Made by a program: the position numbers and the translations under genes
Assembly: GCA_028718125.1 (NCBI GenBank)
Contig: JAQUMN010000001.1
Location: forward strand, 1 to 64,000
DNA length: 64,000 nt
Origin: Kiritimatiellia bacterium
GTDB taxonomy: Bacteria; Verrucomicrobiota; Kiritimatiellia; JAAZAB01
Direction of reading: 5' to 3'
Notes under the pieces: generated by a model
The model's database searches: none
What the model saw: the letters and a program-made list of their open reading frames with translations, nothing else
What the model was told of the DNA's origin: nothing
Shown here: positions 9,883-44,851 of the stretch, piece after piece
Numbering within the stretch: the first letter of the stretch is position 1
Layout: the number at the start of each line of letters is the position of its first letter

Positions 9883-11007
9883 ATGGGCAAGCAATTAACA
9901 GGCGCGATTTTGGCTCTGGGGTCACCCCAGGAAAAGCCCGATATTCGCTATCAGGCCGGTTTTTCCGTGCCGGATCCCGTGGTGTATGTTCAGCAGGCTG
10001 GAAAAAAATATCTGGTCGTGTCCCTGCTCGACCGCGAGCTGGCGCGGCGCGTTGCGCCGGGCATCCAGATTTATTCGCCGGATGCCCTGAGTATTCCACG
10101 CGCTTTACGCGGGACTTTGAGCGGATGGATCGTGGGCCTGCTGCGGGAACTTGATCTTCGCGCCGTCACCGTTGCCGCGGATTTTCCCGTGCGCGCGGCC
10201 GATCAACTCCGGCGCGCCGGTGTACGCCTGCTTGTGGCGGATGGGCCGCTGATGCCCGAGCGGGCGATCAAGACGTGCGTTGAAGTTGACCGGATCGCAG
10301 CCTGTCAGCATGCCGCGGTTCAGGCGATGCGCGAGGCCATCCGCATGATTGCCCGCGCCCGCGCGGATAAAAAAAACCGCTTGCGCATCCGGGGCCGGTT
10401 ACTAACTTCCGAACATGTGCGGCGTGCCATTTGCCGCGTGTTGTTGGATCACAATTGCGCCGGCGAGGGAACTATCGTGGCTTGCGGCGAACAGGCGGCA
10501 ACCCCGCACGGTGTGGGCCATGGTCCTTTGTGCGCGCACCAGAGCATTGTGATCGATATTTTTCCCCGGCATCTCGAACACGGGTATTGGGGGGATCTCA
10601 CGCGCACGGTTGTGAAAGGGAATCCGTCGCCGACGTTGAAAAAAATGTATTTCGCCGTGAAAGCGGCCCAGGCCGCCGCCCTGGCCGAGATCCGCGCCGG
10701 CGTAAGCACCCGGAGCGTGCACCGCTTGACGACCGCCGTGCTGGAGCGCCATGGATTCAAGACCGGCCTCCTGGACGGCAAAGCCCAGGGGTTCATTCAT
10801 TCAACCGGGCATGGGATTGGGCTCGAGGTGCATGAAGCGCCATCGCTCAGCCTGCGGCCGGGGCGTTTACGGGCGGGGCATGTGGTCACGGTAGAGCCGG
10901 GGCTGTATTATTTCCAGCACGGGGGAGTGCGGATCGAAGACACCGTGCTGGTCACACGCAGCGGTTACCGGGAACTGTCGGCCTGCGCGGATGTATTCCA
11001 GGTTTGA
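9883..11007 (+). CDS. M24-family metallopeptidase, Xaa-Pro aminopeptidase-like
   Basis: The protein has 374 residues: an N-terminal creatinase-like domain (about 1-145) and a pita-bread M24 catalytic domain. The dinuclear metal ligands are visible: D in 'IVIDIFPR', D in 'GDLTRTVVKG', H in 'HSTGHGIGLEVHE', E in 'VTVEPGLYY' and E in 'GGVRIEDTVLV'. It should be a cytoplasmic aminopeptidase acting on peptides with proline at position 2. AGGGTG lies upstream of the ATG. It is divergent from dnaA and convergent with the next gene, so it appears to be monocistronic. Confidence 0.92.
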   Translation: MGKQLTGAILALGSPQEKPDIRYQAGFSVPDPVVYVQQAGKKYLVVSLLDRELARRVAPGIQIYSPDALSIPRALRGTLSGWIVGLLRELDLRAVTVAADFPVRAADQLRRAGVRLLVADGPLMPERAIKTCVEVDRIAACQHAAVQAMREAIRMIARARADKKNRLRIRGRLLTSEHVRRAICRVLLDHNCAGEGTIVACGEQAATPHGVGHGPLCAHQSIVIDIFPRHLEHGYWGDLTRTVVKGNPSPTLKKMYFAVKAAQAAALAEIRAGVSTRSVHRLTTAVLERHGFKTGLLDGKAQGFIHSTGHGIGLEVHEAPSLSLRPGRLRAGHVVTVEPGLYYFQHGGVRIEDTVLVTRSGYRELSACADVFQV

Positions 11008-11013
11008 AAACCT

Positions 11014-11745
11014 TCACCGGTCATCGGCGCCCGCATCCTCGTCGACATTTTGAACATGGATATCCAAGGTGCAATATCCGGAACATTCCGTATCCAGACG
11101 GGAACCGATGGTGACGGACAGCGGCCCGGAAAAAATCGGACCATCCACAACGATGGTATGATACTCGCCGTTTTCACCGCACGGATCGATCCCGATTTTC
11201 TGGAACTCGCCGATGATTTTCGCGTCAATTGTTCGACCGAGGAATTCCCGGCTTAGTTTGCTTTCGTTGATGCGGACAATCAAAGCCTTGTAACCAAGCG
11301 CGATGAACTCGCGCAACAGAGCCGGCCGGGCGTCTCCCCACAGCGGCAGGTAAGGGATGAGCCCGGCTTGGGCGCATACTTTTTCTTCCCATTCCCGGTG
11401 GGGCGGAAAATCAATGTCCCCGAATATCCCGCCCTGGATGCCTTTTGCGCGAATTGCATGCAGCGCATCGACAAAGGCGGCTTCGTATCCCGCCCAGGTG
11501 GCGCATCTGGTAAGCAGGGGTATGCCCAGCGCCGTCGCCTGCGCGGCGATGACATCCCTGCGCAAACCGTGTGATCTTGACCGCAGGCCGTCTTCGCAGA
11601 TGATGGTCAACAGGCAGGCCGGCTTGGCGCCCGCCATGCAGGCGCGATGCAGCGCCAGACATGAATCCTTGCCGCCGCTCCACGAGCTGAAAAACAAGGC
11701 ATTGCTGGGCGGCGTTAGATTTGGTTGGGCATTTATTTTTTTCAT
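11014..11745 (-). CDS. DUF71 / Dph6-like PP-loop ATPase, B12-linked subgroup
   Basis: The protein has 243 residues with the N-type ATP pyrophosphatase PP-loop 'SSWSGGKDSCLALHRA' at about 19-34 and the family's C-terminal block 'GENGEYHTIVVDGPIFSGPL'. Archaeal and eukaryotic members (Dph6) amidate diphthine, but bacteria lack diphthamide. A bacterial DUF71 subgroup was predicted from comparative genomics to act in cobalamin salvage. Here the gene lies downstream of btuD on the same strand, ending the btu cluster, which supports that role. The exact reaction is unknown. The 116-base gap to btuD holds two strong hairpins, so expression may be partly uncoupled. Confidence 0.85.
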   Translation of the reverse strand: MKKINAQPNLTPPSNALFFSSWSGGKDSCLALHRACMAGAKPACLLTIICEDGLRSRSHGLRRDVIAAQATALGIPLLTRCATWAGYEAAFVDALHAIRAKGIQGGIFGDIDFPPHREWEEKVCAQAGLIPYLPLWGDARPALLREFIALGYKALIVRINESKLSREFLGRTIDAKIIGEFQKIGIDPCGENGEYHTIVVDGPIFSGPLSVTIGSRLDTECSGYCTLDIHVQNVDEDAGADDR

Positions 11746-11861: not shown

Positions 11862-12671
11862 TTAATCCATCTTCTGCCTGCGATGGGCTTCCTTGGCCGC
11901 TTCGGAAACGGCCATGACATAAGGTTTGCGCGAAATAGGGTTTTTCTCAACAATCACGACCGTTTTATAGACATCCTCGATAATCCTGTAATCAAGCACT
12001 TCCTCCGGCAATCCGAATTTATGCATGACGCCCTTGTTGAAAAGCGCCAGGTGGTGGCAATACTCGCCAGCCAGGTTCAGATCGTGCAGCACCATAACCA
12101 CCGTAAGCGCGAAGTTGATGTTCAGCCTCCTTATAAGGTCGAGAATGCCCACCTGGTGGGTAATGTCAAGATAGGTGGTCGGTTCGTCCAGGAGCAGCAA
12201 ATTCGGCTCCTGGGCCAGCGCGCGCGCGATCAAAGCCAGCTGGCGTTCTCCGCCGCTGATCCGGCTCATAATTTGGTCCTTTAGCCTGAGCGCGTCGGTT
12301 GACGCCATGGCGTCGCGGGCGATCTGCAGGTCGTGCTTGGTTTCGAGGAAGCGGAAGCGGTCGTAATAGGGTGTCCGGCCCAGGAGCACAAATTCTTCCA
12401 CGGTCATAAAACCGGATTCGGCGCTTTGCGAAACAACCGCTATCTTGCGCGCCAGGTCCCGAATTTTCATTCGGCGGATGTCCTGACCCTCCAGGCGAAT
12501 GACGCCTCCGGATGGTTTCAGTGTTCGCGTTATGGCCCTTAGCAAGGTTGTTTTCCCGGAGCCGTTCGGGCCGATGATGCCGATGATTTCGCCGGCCGGC
12601 ACGCGCAAATTGATATCCCGGATGGCGAACCCGGAGTCATAACCGCAGGTCAGGTTGCTTATATCGAGCAT
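11862..12671 (-). CDS. btuD: Cobalamin/iron-siderophore ABC transporter ATP-binding protein (BtuD-like)
   Basis: The protein is a canonical ABC ATPase of 269 residues. Walker A is 'GPNGSGKTTLL', the signature is 'ISGGERQLALIARALA', and Walker B is 'NLLLLDEPTTYLD' followed by the H-loop region 'VVMVLHDLNLA'. I place the start at ATG 12671, which has GGAGGG nine bases upstream; the longer open frame reaching 12818 overlaps btuC too far to be real. The gene overlaps the 3' end of btuC by 13 bp. Being in the riboswitch-led operon, it should energise periplasm-to-cytoplasm corrinoid uptake. Confidence 0.92.
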   Translation of the reverse strand: MLDISNLTCGYDSGFAIRDINLRVPAGEIIGIIGPNGSGKTTLLRAITRTLKPSGGVIRLEGQDIRRMKIRDLARKIAVVSQSAESGFMTVEEFVLLGRTPYYDRFRFLETKHDLQIARDAMASTDALRLKDQIMSRISGGERQLALIARALAQEPNLLLLDEPTTYLDITHQVGILDLIRRLNINFALTVVMVLHDLNLAGEYCHHLALFNKGVMHKFGLPEEVLDYRIIEDVYKTVVIVEKNPISRKPYVMAVSEAAKEAHRRQKMD

Positions 12672-13681
12672 CGGATTTTGCCCTCCGGCCGGCGGCATAA
12701 AACATAAATAAAAATAATGCCACCCAGCAATCCCGTAACAACGCCGACCGGCAATTCCGTCGGGCTGATGACCGTTCGCGCCAGCGTATCGCAAGCGACC
12801 ATAAATACCCCGCCGCAAAGCCAGGCGGCGGGCAGCAAAATGCGGTGGTCGCCGCCCACGAAAAGGCGCATGAAATGTGGAACGACCAGGCCCACGAAGC
12901 CGATGATGCCGGCCACAGCAACGCTCAATCCCGTCATGATCGCCGCCAGGATAAAGAGCAGGCGTTTGGCGGTTTCGGTGTTGACGCCGAGATGAAAAGC
13001 CTCCTCCTCGCCGAGCAGCAGGGCGTTAAGCTCCAGGCAGAAGAAATAAGCAACCCCCAGCGCAACCACGGAAACAATCAGCGCGATTCTGACCAGCAGC
13101 TGGTTGGGCTGCTCCAGGGAGCCCATGGCCCAGAAGATGATGCCGTGCAAATCTTCCACCTTGGAAATCGCCATGATCAGCGTAATCAGCGCCGAGCAGA
13201 TAAAACTTATCATTATGCCGATCAGCAGCAGGTTCCGGATATTCAGGCCGCCTTTGCCGATGCTTAAAAAATAAACAGCGAAAATGGCGGCGGCTGCCCC
13301 GATCGAGCCGGCCGCCGGCAAAGACCAAACGCCGAAAATTTTGCCAAGCCTTAAAATGATTGCCAGGCATACACCCAGCGCGGCGCCGCCGGAAATTCCC
13401 ATGGTATAAGGCTCAACCAACGGATTGCGGAACAATCCCTGCAAAATGACTCCGGCCAGGCTTAGCGCGCCGCCGACCGCAATGCCGAGCAAAATACGCG
13501 GTAGGCGGACGTCCCACAGGATGGTGCGCTCGATCGTGTCTCCGCCCTGCACAAGCGCCGAAAAAAGTTTTGCGAGCGGGATGTCGGCCGCGCCGATACA
13601 CAGGGAAATAATCCCGACGCACGCCAGCAAGCCGCATAAAATCAGGAGCGCTGCCGCCCAATGTGCAGATCTGTTTTTCAA
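12659..13681 (-). CDS. btuC: Corrinoid ABC transporter permease (BtuC/FecCD family)
   Basis: The protein has 340 residues and about ten hydrophobic segments, typical of the FecCD family, with the conserved 'SLAGVILQGLFRNPLVEPYT' region near residue 75 and 'GFVGLVVPHFMR' near 265. It forms the membrane channel with BtuD. It starts at a TTG whose bases overlap the btuB stop (TTGA), with AAGG upstream, so translation is coupled to the receptor gene. FecCD permeases also move siderophores; the riboswitch and btuB context favour cobalamin. Confidence 0.92.
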   Translation of the reverse strand: MKNRSAHWAAALLILCGLLACVGIISLCIGAADIPLAKLFSALVQGGDTIERTILWDVRLPRILLGIAVGGALSLAGVILQGLFRNPLVEPYTMGISGGAALGVCLAIILRLGKIFGVWSLPAAGSIGAAAAIFAVYFLSIGKGGLNIRNLLLIGIMISFICSALITLIMAISKVEDLHGIIFWAMGSLEQPNQLLVRIALIVSVVALGVAYFFCLELNALLLGEEEAFHLGVNTETAKRLLFILAAIMTGLSVAVAGIIGFVGLVVPHFMRLFVGGDHRILLPAAWLCGGVFMVACDTLARTVISPTELPVGVVTGLLGGIIFIYVLCRRPEGKIRCSI

Positions 13682-15597
13682 AACGTTGCCTTCATGCCGC
13701 CCACCACGCTTGCGCCGGGCATGGGGTAGCCATTGAGCATTTGATATTGCTTATTCAGGATGTTGTCGCCGCGCGCAAATATTTCCACGTTCTTGAAGAT
13801 GGTCTGCGCCGCATAAGCGCCGAAGGTCATAAAGCCGCCCAATTCTTGCGTATTGGCACGGTCAGCATAAACCGAGTCGGTATACTCGGCGTTCACGTTC
13901 AATTTCAACCCCCATTTGCTCTGGTAGCCCAGGCGGCCGCCCACTTTATTCTTCGGCCGGTAGGTCAGGATGTCGCCGTCATACTCGCCGCTGGTGTCCC
14001 GCGCGTCAAGCAATGTGTAGCTCAGGGCGCCGGAAATTTCCTCGGTGAATTGCATGCTTAATTCGGTTTCCAGACCCTGTATGCAGGCGTCATTGATGTT
14101 TTGAGCCGTATATACTCCCATGCCGTCATCGAACCAGGCGATCAGTTTTTTTACGTGGCTTTGGAACAGGGAAACCTGCAGCATGCTTTTTGCCCCAAGT
14201 TGCTGTTGGATCCCGGCATCGTAACTGAACGACTCCTCCGGTTTCAAATCCGGGTTCCCCGCGGAATAGTCGTCCCGCCAATAGAGTTCATCGATCGTCG
14301 GCGCCCTGAATCCGCGGCCGATGGAAGCTTTCAGTCCGGTGCTTGCAGTAATCTTATAGAGGCCGCTGATTTTCGGGCTGAGTTCGGCCCCCCATTTTGA
14401 CTGGACGTCGCAACGCAAGCCGGGGGTTACGACCAGCGCCTTTAGCAGCGATATCTCGTCCTGCAGGAAACCTGCGCCGGTGAAGAGATCGCGGTTGCCG
14501 CCGATCAGCGATAATCCATCGGCATCCTTGATGTTCACATAATCGTTTTCCAGGTAAATTCCTCCCAGGAGCAATTGCCTCTCGCCTAAAGGCAAGGTCT
14601 GCTGGACATCTAATCCTGCTTTCTGGTTGCGGCTGATGTCAGTGGTCAAAATGTCCGGGTCCTTGTAGTCCTGCCAGTCCTGGTTCAGAAAGGCCTTGCT
14701 GGTGAGCACCGTATTGGTTGCGAATTCATACTTATGCGTGAGGTCGACCCAATAATGTTCGTCATACTGCTTGGCATTGGGCGTAGGCCAGCTTGTTGAT
14801 CCGGGGACGCCTTTATTCTGCCGCGAAAATCCTGAATTCAAGACCAGCCGCGATTCCCGGGTAATGTCATAATCCAGTTTGACGGCGATATTGTAGCCTT
14901 CGCAGGCGCTGTTTTCACGCCAGCCGTCGGAAGCATTCTGACTGGCCATGACGAGGTACCCGAAGTCGCCGATCCTGGCCCCGTTATCCAACCGGAGAAT
15001 GCGCGTGTTTTTCGTGCCATACGACGCCTCTAAATCGGTGGTAAATTTTTCCGGCGGGTCCCTGGTGACGATATTGACCACCCCGGCCATAGCGCCGGCG
15101 CCGTAAAGGACCGAGCCGGGCCCCCGGATCACCTCGATGCGCTCAATCTGATCGACGGGATACATGGAAAGATCGGCCATTCCAACGGAGGCAACATTAA
15201 CTGGTCGGCCGTCAACCATGACCAGGACCTGCTCCCTGGAAGAACCGCGCAGAGTTATTTCGCTCTCCGACCCCATGGAACCGTAACTGTTGATGCGCGC
15301 GTCGGTAACTTCTTCCAGGACCTCGCCGACATCCAGAGCGTTCAATTCCTCAATCCTTTCCCGCGAAACCACGGAAACGCTCACCCCCACGTCACGGATT
15401 GCCTGAGGAATGCGTGTTGCGGATACAACCACGGTATTGGCCTCGGTGGCCTCAGACACTGCCTGGGTGACGACCGACGCGGTGGATTGAACCGCCTCTT
15501 TCTCCGCGTCAGCCCCTTGCGCCCGACTATCGGTTGAAATCGTCAATATTGCTGCGCTGCCGATCAATGCGGCAATTATGCGTCTGTTTGTTTTCAT
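13678..15597 (-). CDS. btuB: TonB-dependent outer-membrane cobalamin receptor (BtuB-like)
   Basis: The protein has 639 residues with a signal peptide (MKTNRRIIAALIGSAAILTI...). A TonB-box-like 'NTVVVSATRIPQ' is followed by a plug domain at about 60-170 ('ITLRGSSREQVLVMVDGRPV', 'RIEVIRGPGSVLYG') and a 22-strand-type barrel ending in aromatic F ('GGMKATF'). Length fits BtuB better than the larger siderophore receptors. It lies 21 bases after the Rossmann-protein gene and overlaps btuC, inside the cobalamin-riboswitch operon. Confidence 0.92.
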   Translation of the reverse strand: MKTNRRIIAALIGSAAILTISTDSRAQGADAEKEAVQSTASVVTQAVSEATEANTVVVSATRIPQAIRDVGVSVSVVSRERIEELNALDVGEVLEEVTDARINSYGSMGSESEITLRGSSREQVLVMVDGRPVNVASVGMADLSMYPVDQIERIEVIRGPGSVLYGAGAMAGVVNIVTRDPPEKFTTDLEASYGTKNTRILRLDNGARIGDFGYLVMASQNASDGWRENSACEGYNIAVKLDYDITRESRLVLNSGFSRQNKGVPGSTSWPTPNAKQYDEHYWVDLTHKYEFATNTVLTSKAFLNQDWQDYKDPDILTTDISRNQKAGLDVQQTLPLGERQLLLGGIYLENDYVNIKDADGLSLIGGNRDLFTGAGFLQDEISLLKALVVTPGLRCDVQSKWGAELSPKISGLYKITASTGLKASIGRGFRAPTIDELYWRDDYSAGNPDLKPEESFSYDAGIQQQLGAKSMLQVSLFQSHVKKLIAWFDDGMGVYTAQNINDACIQGLETELSMQFTEEISGALSYTLLDARDTSGEYDGDILTYRPKNKVGGRLGYQSKWGLKLNVNAEYTDSVYADRANTQELGGFMTFGAYAAQTIFKNVEIFARGDNILNKQYQMLNGYPMPGASVVGGMKATF

Positions 15598-15618: not shown

Positions 15619-16285
15619 TTATTTTTTAAACAAATTCAGTACTCCATGGCACAGGCAGGCTGTTCCTACGGCCAGCGTTTTAGGTTTTTTAACCTCAACC
15701 GTCTTCATAAATGCCAGAAATTCCGGGCCCTTTATTGCGCCGACGCCGGGGGCCATTTGTGCGGATGCGAAAATTTTTGCGCAGTCGAACAAGTCAAATA
15801 CGGCGTATTCCAGCAATTTATACAAGGGCGCCGGCCGCGGCTCGCGCGTTAAGGTGCACTCGTTTGTGAGGTGCGGGCATTCTTCGGAGCACAATTTTCC
15901 CCTGGTCATGTAGCTGAAAATCAGCCTGGCGTCCGACTCGTCACAGTCGAGGAACAGGCTTTGCGGAATCCTTTTCAGCACGTTGGGAATGACGCCGGGC
16001 AACGGCGTCAAACGGAAGTATTCCTTGATCCATTTCCCGCACGTATGGCCCGGCTGGGTGGGCACGATAAAATCGGGTTCGAGCTTTAAAGTCAAATCCC
16101 AGGCGCTCTGCGCATCCTTCAGGATAAAATCACTCCCGGCCACAAGTTCCTGCGCCTTGCAGGCGGGATCGTTATCCACAAGAATTACGCGTGTGTGTTG
16201 TTCCTTGAAATAACGGCAGGCCTTGGCTCCGAATTTGCCGCCGCCGATAACCAGCGCTGTTTTACCGAACATGGTGGCACTCATT
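15619..16285 (-). CDS. Unknown Rossmann-fold, Cys-rich protein in the btu operon
   Basis: The protein has 222 residues. It opens with a nucleotide-binding motif 'ALVIGGGKFGAKACRYF' and 'VILVDNDPACK', the pattern of a TrkA-N/NAD-type Rossmann domain. The rest holds cysteines in suggestive groups ('HTCGKW', 'DCDESDAR', 'LCSEECPHLTNEC', 'CLCHG'), which might bind metal, an Fe-S cluster or a corrinoid. I chose ATG 16285 because it overlaps the btuF stop as ATGA; an internal ATG at 16273 is the alternative. It sits between btuF and btuB in the riboswitch-controlled operon. I do not recognise a characterised family; a role in B12 uptake or processing is inference. Confidence 0.8.
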
Positions 16286-17147
16286 CTTCGTTTGTTCCTT
16301 GTATGCTTTCCTGATGGATGCGCTTTTGAAGTGCAGGCAGGCCGTATAAAATCAGGCGCGGCGAGGGAATGGTGATGACTTGGGAACCTATGTCGTCGTA
16401 GACGCGGCCGGTTTTGATGGCGGCGATCTTTTCCCATCCTTGTCTCTGCTTCAAGGCTTCTTTACCGAAATTTCTTCCCATGTAGGGAAGGATGATCACT
16501 TCGGGATCGCGGTTAATGACAAATTCCGAAGATATGCGCGGAAAGGGCTGGGAGATGTCGCCGGCAATGTTTTTCCCGCCGGCGATTTCGATCATCTCGT
16601 GGATGAACGATCCCTTGCCGCAAGTGAACAAAGGATCACAGCCGGTTTCCAGGTAGACCCGCGGGCGAGCAGGCAGCGTCTCGGTCAGGCGCCTGGCGGT
16701 TGCGATGGCGCCCCGCATGCGTTTGAGCAACGCTTCCGTACGTGCCGGTATTCCGAGAATATCCCCGATTTGTCTGGTTGTGGCGAAAATCTCTTCGATG
16801 CCCTGCGTATCGTCAAGGACTATGACGTGCAGGCCCAGGGCGGATAGTTTATCGTCGGCGGATTGTTGCCCCGCAAAACCGGTGGCTAGGACAAGATCGG
16901 GCTTGAGCGCGACGATTTTTTCGATGTTGGGCTTGGCATACACCCCGATCCGTGCCGCGTGTTTGACTTCCTCCAGATAATCGGAGGACGTTGTCACGCC
17001 CACGATCCGGTCCTTTAATCCCAGTTCGATCAGGGTTTCATCATAGCTGGGCGCAAGGCTTATAATCCGTTTGGGCGCAGTGTCCTCGGCAAGGATATGC
17101 GTGCCGATAAAAATCGAAAAACAGACGGCAATAATAATCTTGGGCAT
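16281..17147 (-). CDS. btuF: Periplasmic cobalamin-binding protein (BtuF-like)
   Basis: The protein has 288 residues with an N-terminal signal peptide (MPKIIIAVCFSIFIGTHILA) and the type III periplasmic binding fold. Markers are 'RIISLAPSYDETLIELGLKD', 'VALKPDLVLATG' and 'YLETGCDPLFTCGKGSFI'. It should hand corrinoid to BtuCD. It is the first gene of the operon. The ATG directly follows a U-run and a hairpin containing its own Shine-Dalgarno, downstream of the cobalamin riboswitch, so it is the direct regulatory target. Confidence 0.92.
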   Translation of the reverse strand: MPKIIIAVCFSIFIGTHILAEDTAPKRIISLAPSYDETLIELGLKDRIVGVTTSSDYLEEVKHAARIGVYAKPNIEKIVALKPDLVLATGFAGQQSADDKLSALGLHVIVLDDTQGIEEIFATTRQIGDILGIPARTEALLKRMRGAIATARRLTETLPARPRVYLETGCDPLFTCGKGSFIHEMIEIAGGKNIAGDISQPFPRISSEFVINRDPEVIILPYMGRNFGKEALKQRQGWEKIAAIKTGRVYDDIGSQVITIPSPRLILYGLPALQKRIHQESIQGTNEE

Positions 17148-17618: not shown

Positions 17619-18611
17619 TTATAAGGTTATCCTCCAGGCATGCCACACATAAACGATTCCGCCACGGAGGCCCAAGCCGAGCGCCAGAAATAACACCAGC
17701 GTGACGAACATCACGGCATTGGCCGCGAGGATGTGTTCGGCGGCAATGGGAACGTTCGGTTCGCCGCTAACGATCGGTGCGCCGATGGCGGGCGTTTCCA
17801 GCCTCTCGCCATCGTAATAGTTTGTCCCGCCCAGTTGAATGCCCAGAGCGCCGGCCATCGCGGCCTCCGGCAATCCTGCATTGGGGCTGGCGTGCTTGCA
17901 TCCGTCGCGCCACAGGATCCGCCACGATTGGACCGGCCGCCGGCCCAGGAGCGCCGCCGTGCAACCCATCAACGGGGCCGTGATGCGCGCGGGCAGGTAA
18001 TTGGCCAGATCGTCCAGCTTTGCCGAAGCCCAGCCGAACCGGATATAGCGGTTGGTTGTATAGCCGAAGGTCGAATCAAGGGTGTTGATCGCCCGATATA
18101 CCATTGCTCCCACCGGCCCGGCCAGGATCGCGAAAAATAACGGCGCTGTGACGCCATCCACCGTGCTTTCGGCCACGCATTCAACCGCCGCGCGGGCGAC
18201 CCCGGCCTCGTCAAGATGGGCCGTGTCCCGGCCGACAATCTTTGCCACGCGCCGCCGGGCCTGCTCCAGATTGCCCGCGGCCAAAGCGCGAAATACTGCG
18301 CAACTGTGCCGTACCAAGTCGTGCGCGGCGATGGTTGTGTAGATCAGGAGCACGGAGACAATGTCGTCGGCCAGGGGATGGCAAAGCCCGGCGAGACGAA
18401 TCGATCCCCACGCGCTCACCCCGGTCGTTGCCACCACGAGCAGGACCGTCACAATGCCGGCGGCTTTCTCATTGCGAATCATACGCCGCAAGGGACTCTC
18501 CAGCCGTTGAGACAGCCAGCCGATGCCCCGCACGGGATGCGGCAACCAGCGCGGATCGCCCGCCAGGAGATCCAAAACCACGGCGGCCAGCATTTGATAA
18601 GTTAAATTCAT
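17619..18611 (-). CDS. cbiB: Adenosylcobinamide-phosphate synthase (CbiB/CobD type)
   Basis: The protein has 330 residues and several membrane segments, with family signatures 'LDLLAGDPRWLPHPVRGIGW' at the N-terminus, 'ECVAESTVDGVTAPLFFAIL' and 'YRAINTLDSTFGYTTNRYI' in the middle, and 'GALGIQLGGTNYYDG' later. It attaches the aminopropanol-phosphate arm to adenosylcobyric acid in the membrane. I place the start at ATG 18611, which overlaps the cobD stop as ATGA; the upstream open extension lies inside cobD. Together with cobD it supplies the nucleotide-loop arm step of cobalamin assembly. Confidence 0.93.
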   Translation of the reverse strand: MNLTYQMLAAVVLDLLAGDPRWLPHPVRGIGWLSQRLESPLRRMIRNEKAAGIVTVLLVVATTGVSAWGSIRLAGLCHPLADDIVSVLLIYTTIAAHDLVRHSCAVFRALAAGNLEQARRRVAKIVGRDTAHLDEAGVARAAVECVAESTVDGVTAPLFFAILAGPVGAMVYRAINTLDSTFGYTTNRYIRFGWASAKLDDLANYLPARITAPLMGCTAALLGRRPVQSWRILWRDGCKHASPNAGLPEAAMAGALGIQLGGTNYYDGERLETPAIGAPIVSGEPNVPIAAEHILAANAVMFVTLVLFLALGLGLRGGIVYVWHAWRITL

Positions 18612-42863: not shown

Positions 42864-42960
42864 ATTTTTAAGGGTGTGATCTGCTTTTTAGATCACAGGA
42901 AAACATCTGAATGGTCGGGCCACCATTCTGCATAATGCCTTTATTATGTGGAGCAATGTC

Positions 42961-43308: not shown

Positions 43309-43483
43309 GAAGCAGCCTTGCATGAGCCGGCTGATTCCCTTGCCTTCGCCTGCTGCGGCTGGGAGACAGAGTTAAAATCGTTGCGATGGGCTTTGATCCT
43401 TACCCGGATCGATGCCGTCAACATTCAATTGGATCTATCGATTTGGCTGCGAGTATCCGTGTCATGATCTTTTTTCCTTTCAT

Positions 43484-44851
43484 ATGACGGAATCCTTACA
43501 TTATTGGCGGAATTTAAGTGCGGCCATGTCCCTGTTGAGCGCGCTTCCTTTCGCCGTCCTGATTCTGTTAATTGCGATCCTGCCCTTCTTTCAGAGCGCC
43601 GCTTCCTGGTGGGAGCAACACCGCAATAAGTTCAAGGTGGCGCTGGTTTGCGCCACGGGCGGAATTCTGTTGTATGTCATCCCGACCGGCGATCTGAATA
43701 AAATCGGGATGACGTATCTTGAATACGCAGCTTTCCTGATGATGCTGGCTTCTTTGTTCGTCATCTCCGGCGGCATTCACATCAGCGGCGCGTTTGCAGG
43801 CTTTCCCTATACCAACACTCTGGTTTTGGCTATCGGCGCCGTCTTAGCGAGTCTGTTGGGCACCACCGGGGCTAGTATGGTGCTGATCCGACCTTTGCTG
43901 CGGGCCAACCACCAACGCAGGCATAAGACCCATATCGTCATTTTTTTCATCTTCGTGGTTAGCAATTGCGGTGGTCTATTAACACCCCTGGGCGATCCGC
44001 CCCTTTACCTAGGATTTCTACGCGGAGTGCCCTTTGACTGGACCCTCCGTTTAGCGCCCCAATGGCTGCTGGTTAATTTTCTGCTATTGTTCGTTTTTCA
44101 CATGCTCGATACCTGGCATTTCCGCCGGGAGGAAGCCCATATGCGAGCCACGTTCATTGGCGAAATCAAGCAGGCCAAGAAGAAAATCCATATCCAAGGC
44201 TGGATCAACGTACTGTTCCTGATGGGCATAACGAGTGTTATCCTGGCTTCGGGCTACTATATCCACCCGCTTCTGGCCCGCGGCTGGGGCGACCCTACGG
44301 CCGAAATCGGCTCAAAGATAATCCAGATTATCATGATGGGCCTTTTGGCGTTTGGGTCGTATCGCCTGACATCCGAACGAATTCACCACGTAAATGAATT
44401 CACCTTCGTGCCTATTCGGGAAGTGACTATTTTATTTTTCGGTATTTTCGGCGCCATGATTCCGGCCCTGGCCTTGCTGGAGGCCAAGAGCCAGGTTCTG
44501 GCCTTGCGGGAACCCTGGCAATATTTCTGGATGAGCGGCATACTGAGCAGCTGTCTGGACAACGCGCCGGCCTATCTTGTCTATAGCACACTGGCTACCA
44601 ATCAACATCATCTCTCTGCCCTCCATCTGGGCGAATTGGCGGATCAATTTCCTTCGCTCCTGGCAGCGATCTCCTGCGGCACGGTATTCATGGGCGCGCT
44701 CACGTATATCGGCAACGGCCCGAATTTCATGGTGAAGTCCATGGCCGAACATGCCCGAATAAAAATGCCATCCTTCGGCGGGTATATACTCTGGTCGGGC
44801 GCCATTCTCGTGCCTATATTTATTCTGCAAACATTAATATTCTTCAGGTAA
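43484..44851 (+). CDS. Citrate/sodium-proton antiporter-type transporter (CitMHS_2-like)
   Basis: The protein has 455 residues and about twelve membrane segments. A signature block 'SNCGGLLTPLGDPPLYLGFL' follows 'GTTGASMVLIRPLL', and 'GILSSCLDNAPAYLVY' mirrors it in the second half, as in the ion-transporter superfamily (ArsB/NhaD). Members are annotated as Na+/H+ antiporters or citrate transporters; the substrate is unproven. I use ATG 43484; an in-frame ATG at 43526 is possible because neither has a clear Shine-Dalgarno. Upstream frames in the same register reach 43412. Confidence 0.85.
   Translation: MTESLHYWRNLSAAMSLLSALPFAVLILLIAILPFFQSAASWWEQHRNKFKVALVCATGGILLYVIPTGDLNKIGMTYLEYAAFLMMLASLFVISGGIHISGAFAGFPYTNTLVLAIGAVLASLLGTTGASMVLIRPLLRANHQRRHKTHIVIFFIFVVSNCGGLLTPLGDPPLYLGFLRGVPFDWTLRLAPQWLLVNFLLLFVFHMLDTWHFRREEAHMRATFIGEIKQAKKKIHIQGWINVLFLMGITSVILASGYYIHPLLARGWGDPTAEIGSKIIQIIMMGLLAFGSYRLTSERIHHVNEFTFVPIREVTILFFGIFGAMIPALALLEAKSQVLALREPWQYFWMSGILSSCLDNAPAYLVYSTLATNQHHLSALHLGELADQFPSLLAAISCGTVFMGALTYIGNGPNFMVKSMAEHARIKMPSFGGYILWSGAILVPIFILQTLIFFR

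Follow-up and report, generated by a model that had tools for sequence, protein, structure and literature searches.

A cysteine-rich Rossmann-type gene without a family name inside the riboswitch-preceded btu operon of a Kiritimatiellia bacterium, with a possible role in processing imported corrinoid

Between btuF and btuB of a vitamin B12 uptake operon, a Kiritimatiellia bacterium carries a gene, here called X, whose 221-residue product joins a Rossmann N-terminal domain to a Cys-rich C-terminal domain and belongs to no named family. X was found in a stretch of 64,000 nucleotides (the window), where it occupies 15619..16284 of the minus strand with its stop codon, and comparison of three species indicates that it is a real, conserved gene under purifying selection. 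Riboswitch-preceded btu operons are familiar, but no description of a Rossmann-plus-Cys gene without a family name inside one was found in the papers searched, and to that extent this variant is new. We tentatively propose that X may be a cytoplasmic NAD(P)H-linked protein that reduces or deligands imported corrinoid between BtuCD and adenosylation, a role that we regard as possible rather than probable. Many bacteria depend on imported corrinoids, and the deliganding or reduction of cobalt after import is known in few. Behind a B12 riboswitch and flanked by the genes for a periplasmic binder and an outer-membrane receptor, X encodes a small protein, putatively nucleotide-binding in one half and Cys-rich in the other, and is a concrete candidate for that step.

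The operon runs in the order riboswitch-btuF-X-btuB-btuC-btuD-DUF71 on the minus strand. The cobalamin riboswitch aptamer RF00174 (17250..17416) was matched by cmscan over the full model (1-189) at 68.2 bits (E 1e-14; cut-off 31.5 bits) and is the nearest RNA element upstream of X on the same strand; the salvage gene cbiB (17619..18608, minus strand; PF03186, E 5.7e-99) adjoins it on the upstream side. Behind the riboswitch, btuF (16281..17147) encodes a periplasmic corrinoid-binding protein (PF01497, E 3.8e-38), for which the BtuF model stands second among the NCBIfam matches at 121.5 bits, under its cut-off of 234. Downstream of X follow btuB (13678..15597), a TonB-dependent receptor whose top NCBIfam match is the B12 receptor TIGR01779 (E 1.5e-62, under the cut-off), btuC (12659..13681), a FecCD-type permease (PF01032, E 4.2e-95), btuD (11862..12671), an ABC ATPase (PF00005, E 1e-32), and a DUF71/COG2102 PP-loop ATPase (11014..11745; PF01902, E 8.4e-40), which lies under the NCBIfam cut-off for diphthine-ammonia ligase. 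The original prediction had X overlapping btuF by ATGA and lying 21 bases before btuB. Both points hold: the ATGA at 16284-16281 is common to the btuF stop and the X start, and 21 bases separate the X stop from the btuB ATG at 15597; the predicted span of 15619-16285 is correct at its 15619 side and one base too long at the other, where X really ends at 16284. No minus-strand terminator-like hairpin was found from the btuF start to the X end, and promoter-like matches in the X region are at shuffle level (5 vs 4.2 expected). X thus has the properties of a btu operon gene: it lies downstream of RF00174 on the same strand, with short spacings, and is kept there across species. Its claimed place in the btu operon behind a B12 riboswitch is borne out by the upstream RF00174, the spacings and all three known copies. 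Of the co-regulation that had been called firm, the operon and riboswitch placement stands, while co-regulation itself is deduced from sequence, and X is predicted to be co-expressed with the btu genes.

The three copies of X, in the window, in genome G290 (L050:10589-11254, 75% identical to the window copy) and in genome G291, a Kiritimatiellaeota MAG (L001:621-1286, 72% identical), all come from one genus of Kiritimatiellota. Each occupies the slot that separates btuF from btuB, with btuC, btuD and DUF71 downstream, and a cobalamin riboswitch accompanies the operon in each genome; in G291 it is located on the preceding contig, which also carries btuF residues 1-81. A tabulation of homologue contexts had been suggested, and within the window's phylum, to which the sensitive search was applied, three of three homologues adjoin btu genes behind a B12 riboswitch; nowhere among everything searched did homologues lie mainly in unrelated contexts. 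Pairwise dN/dS values of X are 0.152, 0.231 and 0.157, within the range of its neighbours btuF, btuB, btuC and DUF71 (0.11-0.31), which marks it as a real gene under purifying selection. The locus is more than chance, since two other species have the protein in the corresponding operon position with 72-75% identity and a dN/dS of 0.15-0.23. GC and GC3 of X are close to or slightly lower than those of its neighbours, and recent import is thus not clearly indicated by base composition.

The genus copies were all that was returned by profile searches (346 class genomes and 387 phylum genomes), by a search with a single sequence (289 phylum genomes) and by one with the C-terminal half (388 phylum genomes); the four sets overlap and comprise an estimated ~700 different genomes in all. 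A scan of 84,980 species genomes, made with a single-sequence query sensitive to close relatives only, gave one X locus, and the plasmids, phages and viral contigs searched gave none. Since the sensitive search was confined to the window's phylum, the term genus-restricted is valid for that phylum only; similar Rossmann-plus-Cys proteins may exist in other phyla. No description of X was found in the literature. Several matches were set aside: one in G102 (L028) is out of frame, contains three stops and lies over another gene; one in G071 (C125, L106) falls inside what reads as a TadA-like deaminase; one in G106 (L107) is weak and inside a 1235-residue frame; and Rossmann-only matches (~30-38% identity, covering residues ~5-65), in frames of ~380-570 aa, were read from PDB and Pfam matches as adenosylhomocysteinase and similar proteins.

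Close relatives without X were also found. In the sister-genus genome G071, which belongs to the same family and is 96% complete, the operon reads riboswitch-btuF-btuB-btuC-btuD-DUF71 without X, and translation of its btuF-btuB gap revealed neither a relic of X nor homologous sequence. G294 carries btuB and DUF71 in another arrangement, without X, and the same-genus genomes G142 and G289 have neither X nor DUF71, with no btuF match in G142 and one at 34% identity only in G289. This pattern suggests either acquisition of X by part of one genus or its retention in that part alone. Genes resembling exbB-exbD-tonB by eye lie between DUF71 and an M24 peptidase gene in G290 (L050:15907-17707) and G291 (L001:5760-7941); they are missing from the window (9883-11745), where DUF71 abuts the M24 peptidase gene. 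Elsewhere in the window, an nhaA-I RNA motif (RF03057, 43.2 bits) occurs at 42872-42928 on the plus strand and lies upstream of an ORF (43412-44851) that resembles a membrane-protein gene.

The Rossmann (NAD-type) domain is assigned to X residues 5-76 (16057..16272, minus strand) from sub-cut-off matches to TrkA_N and NAD_binding_7. The GGGKFG nucleotide motif noticed in the original prediction is present at residues 14-19 and fits GxGxxG, with G14, G15, G16 and G19 invariant in three species, and D37 is the acidic residue closing strand 2. The Rossmann assignment made there holds for residues ~5-76 only, by matches mostly under curated cut-offs, and residues ~77-221 lie outside it. NAD_binding_7, TrkA_N, Shikimate_DH and AdoHcyase_NAD are matched by all three copies (best-member E <= 0.004); the window copy is under the curated cut-off of each matched Pfam NAD-type family, and the G290 copy is over that of NAD_binding_7 (25 bits, genome-wide search). 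Confidence in the AlphaFold model is low (mean pLDDT 47.9; mostly 57-79 in the Rossmann part and ~30-40 over most of the C-terminal part), and the model was used solely as support for a Rossmann-like N-terminal fold; in Foldseek its top matches, at E ~0.01, are to PurT, PurK and PylC, in each case the N-terminal domain, and none reaches 0.001. The GxGxxG motif and D37, with weak NAD-family matches in all three members, point to an NAD-linked protein, and X is predicted to bind NAD(H) through this domain. The top single Pfam match of the window copy is TrkA_N (PF02254, 22.5 bits, E 1.5e-4, residues 11-58), and X is co-encoded with a transporter; by analogy with the TrkA/RCK domains of potassium transporters, X could therefore be imagined as a gate for BtuCD, a regulatory subunit responding to NADH/NAD or to redox state. 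However, the match, which includes the GxGxxG loop, covers only positions 2-49 of 116 under a cut-off of 23.8 bits, no TrkA_C is present, and the Cys-rich half would go unexplained. We know of no TrkA/RCK-style gating of an ABC importer, and we consider such a function of X quite doubtful.

The Cys-rich domain, residues 77-221 (15622..16056, minus strand), was delimited on the three-species alignment and has no Pfam or credible PDB match. X contains 10 cysteines in 221 residues (4.5%, vs a mean of 1.5% over the window ORFs), so the description of it as rich in cysteine is upheld. Nine are invariant in the three species (23, 42, 82, 132, 136, 143, 168, 210 and 212), of which C82, C132, C136, C143, C168, C210 and C212 belong to this domain; five of these make up the motifs C132-x3-C136-P-x5-C143 and C210-x-C212-H-G. 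Pfam gave no match to the C-terminal 152 residues up to E 10, and the PDB gave a single implausible chain, a malate racemase (E 0.0092 for the full-length profile and 0.13 for the C-terminal half alone) that was judged a chance match. In Pfam, NCBIfam and PDB sequence scans, no flavin-, B12- or iron-sulphur-binding family was found in X, which also falls outside the CobR, PduS, BluB and CblC-type families of known corrinoid reductases and decyanases. The maximal 19-residue hydrophobicity mean is 1.14 and no segment is typical of a membrane helix, so X is probably cytoplasmic. Its cysteines are predicted to have a metal or redox role. Because both motifs look metal-binding and the sister operon does without X, the protein might instead handle metal or iron-sulphur, as a cobalt, iron or nickel chaperone or sensor placed in the btu operon and not itself acting on corrinoid; this seems unlikely, given the strict B12-riboswitch context of all three copies and a Rossmann half that a simple chaperone would not explain. 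Even if X turned out to gate transport by redox state or to handle metal, a function would be added to a transport operon held to be well understood.

What the genome does with corrinoids bears on the choice. One TP-methylase was found in the window's genome (C1:134160; genome 93% complete), which argues against a set of corrin-ring methylases; we take this enzyme to be the rRNA methylase RsmI. Corrinoids would accordingly be imported and not built, and imported corrinoid must be processed. A CobA/CobO adenosyltransferase is present, and the bacterium most likely takes up corrinoids from outside for adenosylation. A SirC/Met8-like precorrin-2 dehydrogenase, the enzyme that makes sirohydrochlorin, was considered for X since NAD_binding_7 (PF13241) reaches E 6.6e-5 in one member and the precorrin-2 dehydrogenase of PDB 3dfz, similar in length, was hit at E 0.94. 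But the NAD_binding_7 match is partial and confined to the Rossmann start, the siroheme-synthase central/dimerisation domains are not matched in X, and its Cys-rich half has no known domain; with the corrin-ring pathway missing and a lone TP-methylase where corrin or siroheme methylases would be expected, this identity is highly improbable. In G290, a clear CbiC (precorrin-8X methylmutase; L050:5974-6657, PF02570, E 1.5e-65) was observed though only one TP-methylase was found; that genome is 70% complete, so the corrin pathway beside CbiC may simply be unassembled. Between cbiA and this CbiC homologue lies a radical SAM enzyme (L050:4290-5896) matching NCBIfam CbpB TIGR04163 at 708 bits (cut-off 375), and just upstream of it is a 32-residue peptide ORF, MKKKKTIIAFRRTCKSSGAGLSHYILLEKKVK, possibly its substrate.

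The DUF71-B12 group has been proposed for B12 salvage, as it clusters with btuCDF and anticorrelates with CbiZ (PMC3541065); the window operon fits this proposal, and its DUF71 ATPase is probably a member of that B12-associated subgroup. X may be thought of as a partner of this co-encoded PP-loop ATPase in cobamide remodelling (pseudo-B12 salvage), for example in substrate delivery or preparation: DUF71 is in the operon of all three X genomes, cbiB and CobA/CobO are present, and CbiZ is absent from all 10 family genomes, consistent with the anticorrelation described in PMC3541065. On the other hand, G071 and G294 have DUF71 without X, and in G071 DUF71 shares one frame with BtuD and is not paired with X, so a partnership is hardly to be favoured. 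The G071 frame itself (539 residues; C2, L052:8838-10457) is a possible natural fusion, an assembly error being possible as well; if real, it would directly join the ATPase of the B12 transporter and a DUF71-B12 ATPase. In PMC3541065, BtuD by itself goes unnamed. In G296, of another family of the class, DUF71 follows a CobT-like gene (by eye) behind a cobalamin riboswitch (C27, L053:6150-13118), with a btuF-btuC-btuD set close by on the opposite strand.

Processing of imported corrinoid, in line with the redox or corrinoid-processing step suggested by the original prediction, is the reading of X put forward here. It is favoured by the fixed place of X in the btu operon of all three homologues, always behind a cobalamin riboswitch, by purifying selection comparable to that on its neighbours, by nine invariant cysteines, at a Cys content three times the window mean, and by a salvage-only genome with CobA/CobO; imported corrinoid would be the presumptive substrate. 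When B12 is scarce, X would be made alongside BtuBCDF and the DUF71 PP-loop ATPase. NAD(H) would be bound by its Rossmann domain; its Cys-rich domain would carry a centre of metal or iron-sulphur type, or offer a redox thiol touching the corrin cobalt. X would receive corrinoid from BtuCD and strip off its upper ligand, lower its cobalt from Co(III) towards Co(II), or do both, and the reduced, deliganded corrinoid would pass to the CobA/CobO adenosyltransferase. The main counter-evidence is G071, which has the same operon and CobA/CobO but does without X, so that the step is dispensable or otherwise served; this counts against X as a necessary step. The role is further weakened because X matches no family that binds flavin, B12 or iron-sulphur and the predicted C-terminal structure is unreliable, and in anaerobes flavodoxin or ferredoxin of general use may reduce corrinoids, making a dedicated enzyme unnecessary. 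A bolder extension, that X is the first of a new family of corrinoid-processing proteins, NAD(P)H-linked and Cys-ligated, placed just behind BtuCD and sequence-unrelated to the known reductases and decyanases, is improbable. The rest of the probability falls to something outside the readings considered.

Compared with known systems, the G071 operon resembles that of the window in gene order, cobalamin riboswitch and proteins (63-76% identical) but differs by having no X and by its single BtuD-DUF71 ORF. X shares with TrkA_N/RCK (PF02254) the GxGxxG Rossmann start of residues 11-58, yet scores under the cut-off and has a Cys-rich half in place of TrkA_C. With the NAD_binding_7 precorrin-2 dehydrogenase/siroheme synthase it has in common a Rossmann start and protein size, one homologue passing the domain cut-off, whereas the rest of that enzyme is unmatched and the window's genome has no corrin-ring pathway. 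The DUF71-B12 subgroup is an earlier example in which clustering with btuCDF led to a role in B12 salvage for a family not yet characterised, and one member is in the window operon, but it is another protein, and X is unmentioned in the consulted passages of PMC3541065. The conceptual model for X is BtuM, a B12 transporter with Cys-mediated decyanation (PMC6072759), in which Cys serves as a cobalt ligand in B12 uptake; BtuM is a membrane protein, whereas X has no predicted membrane helix, and the two are likened by concept and not by sequence.
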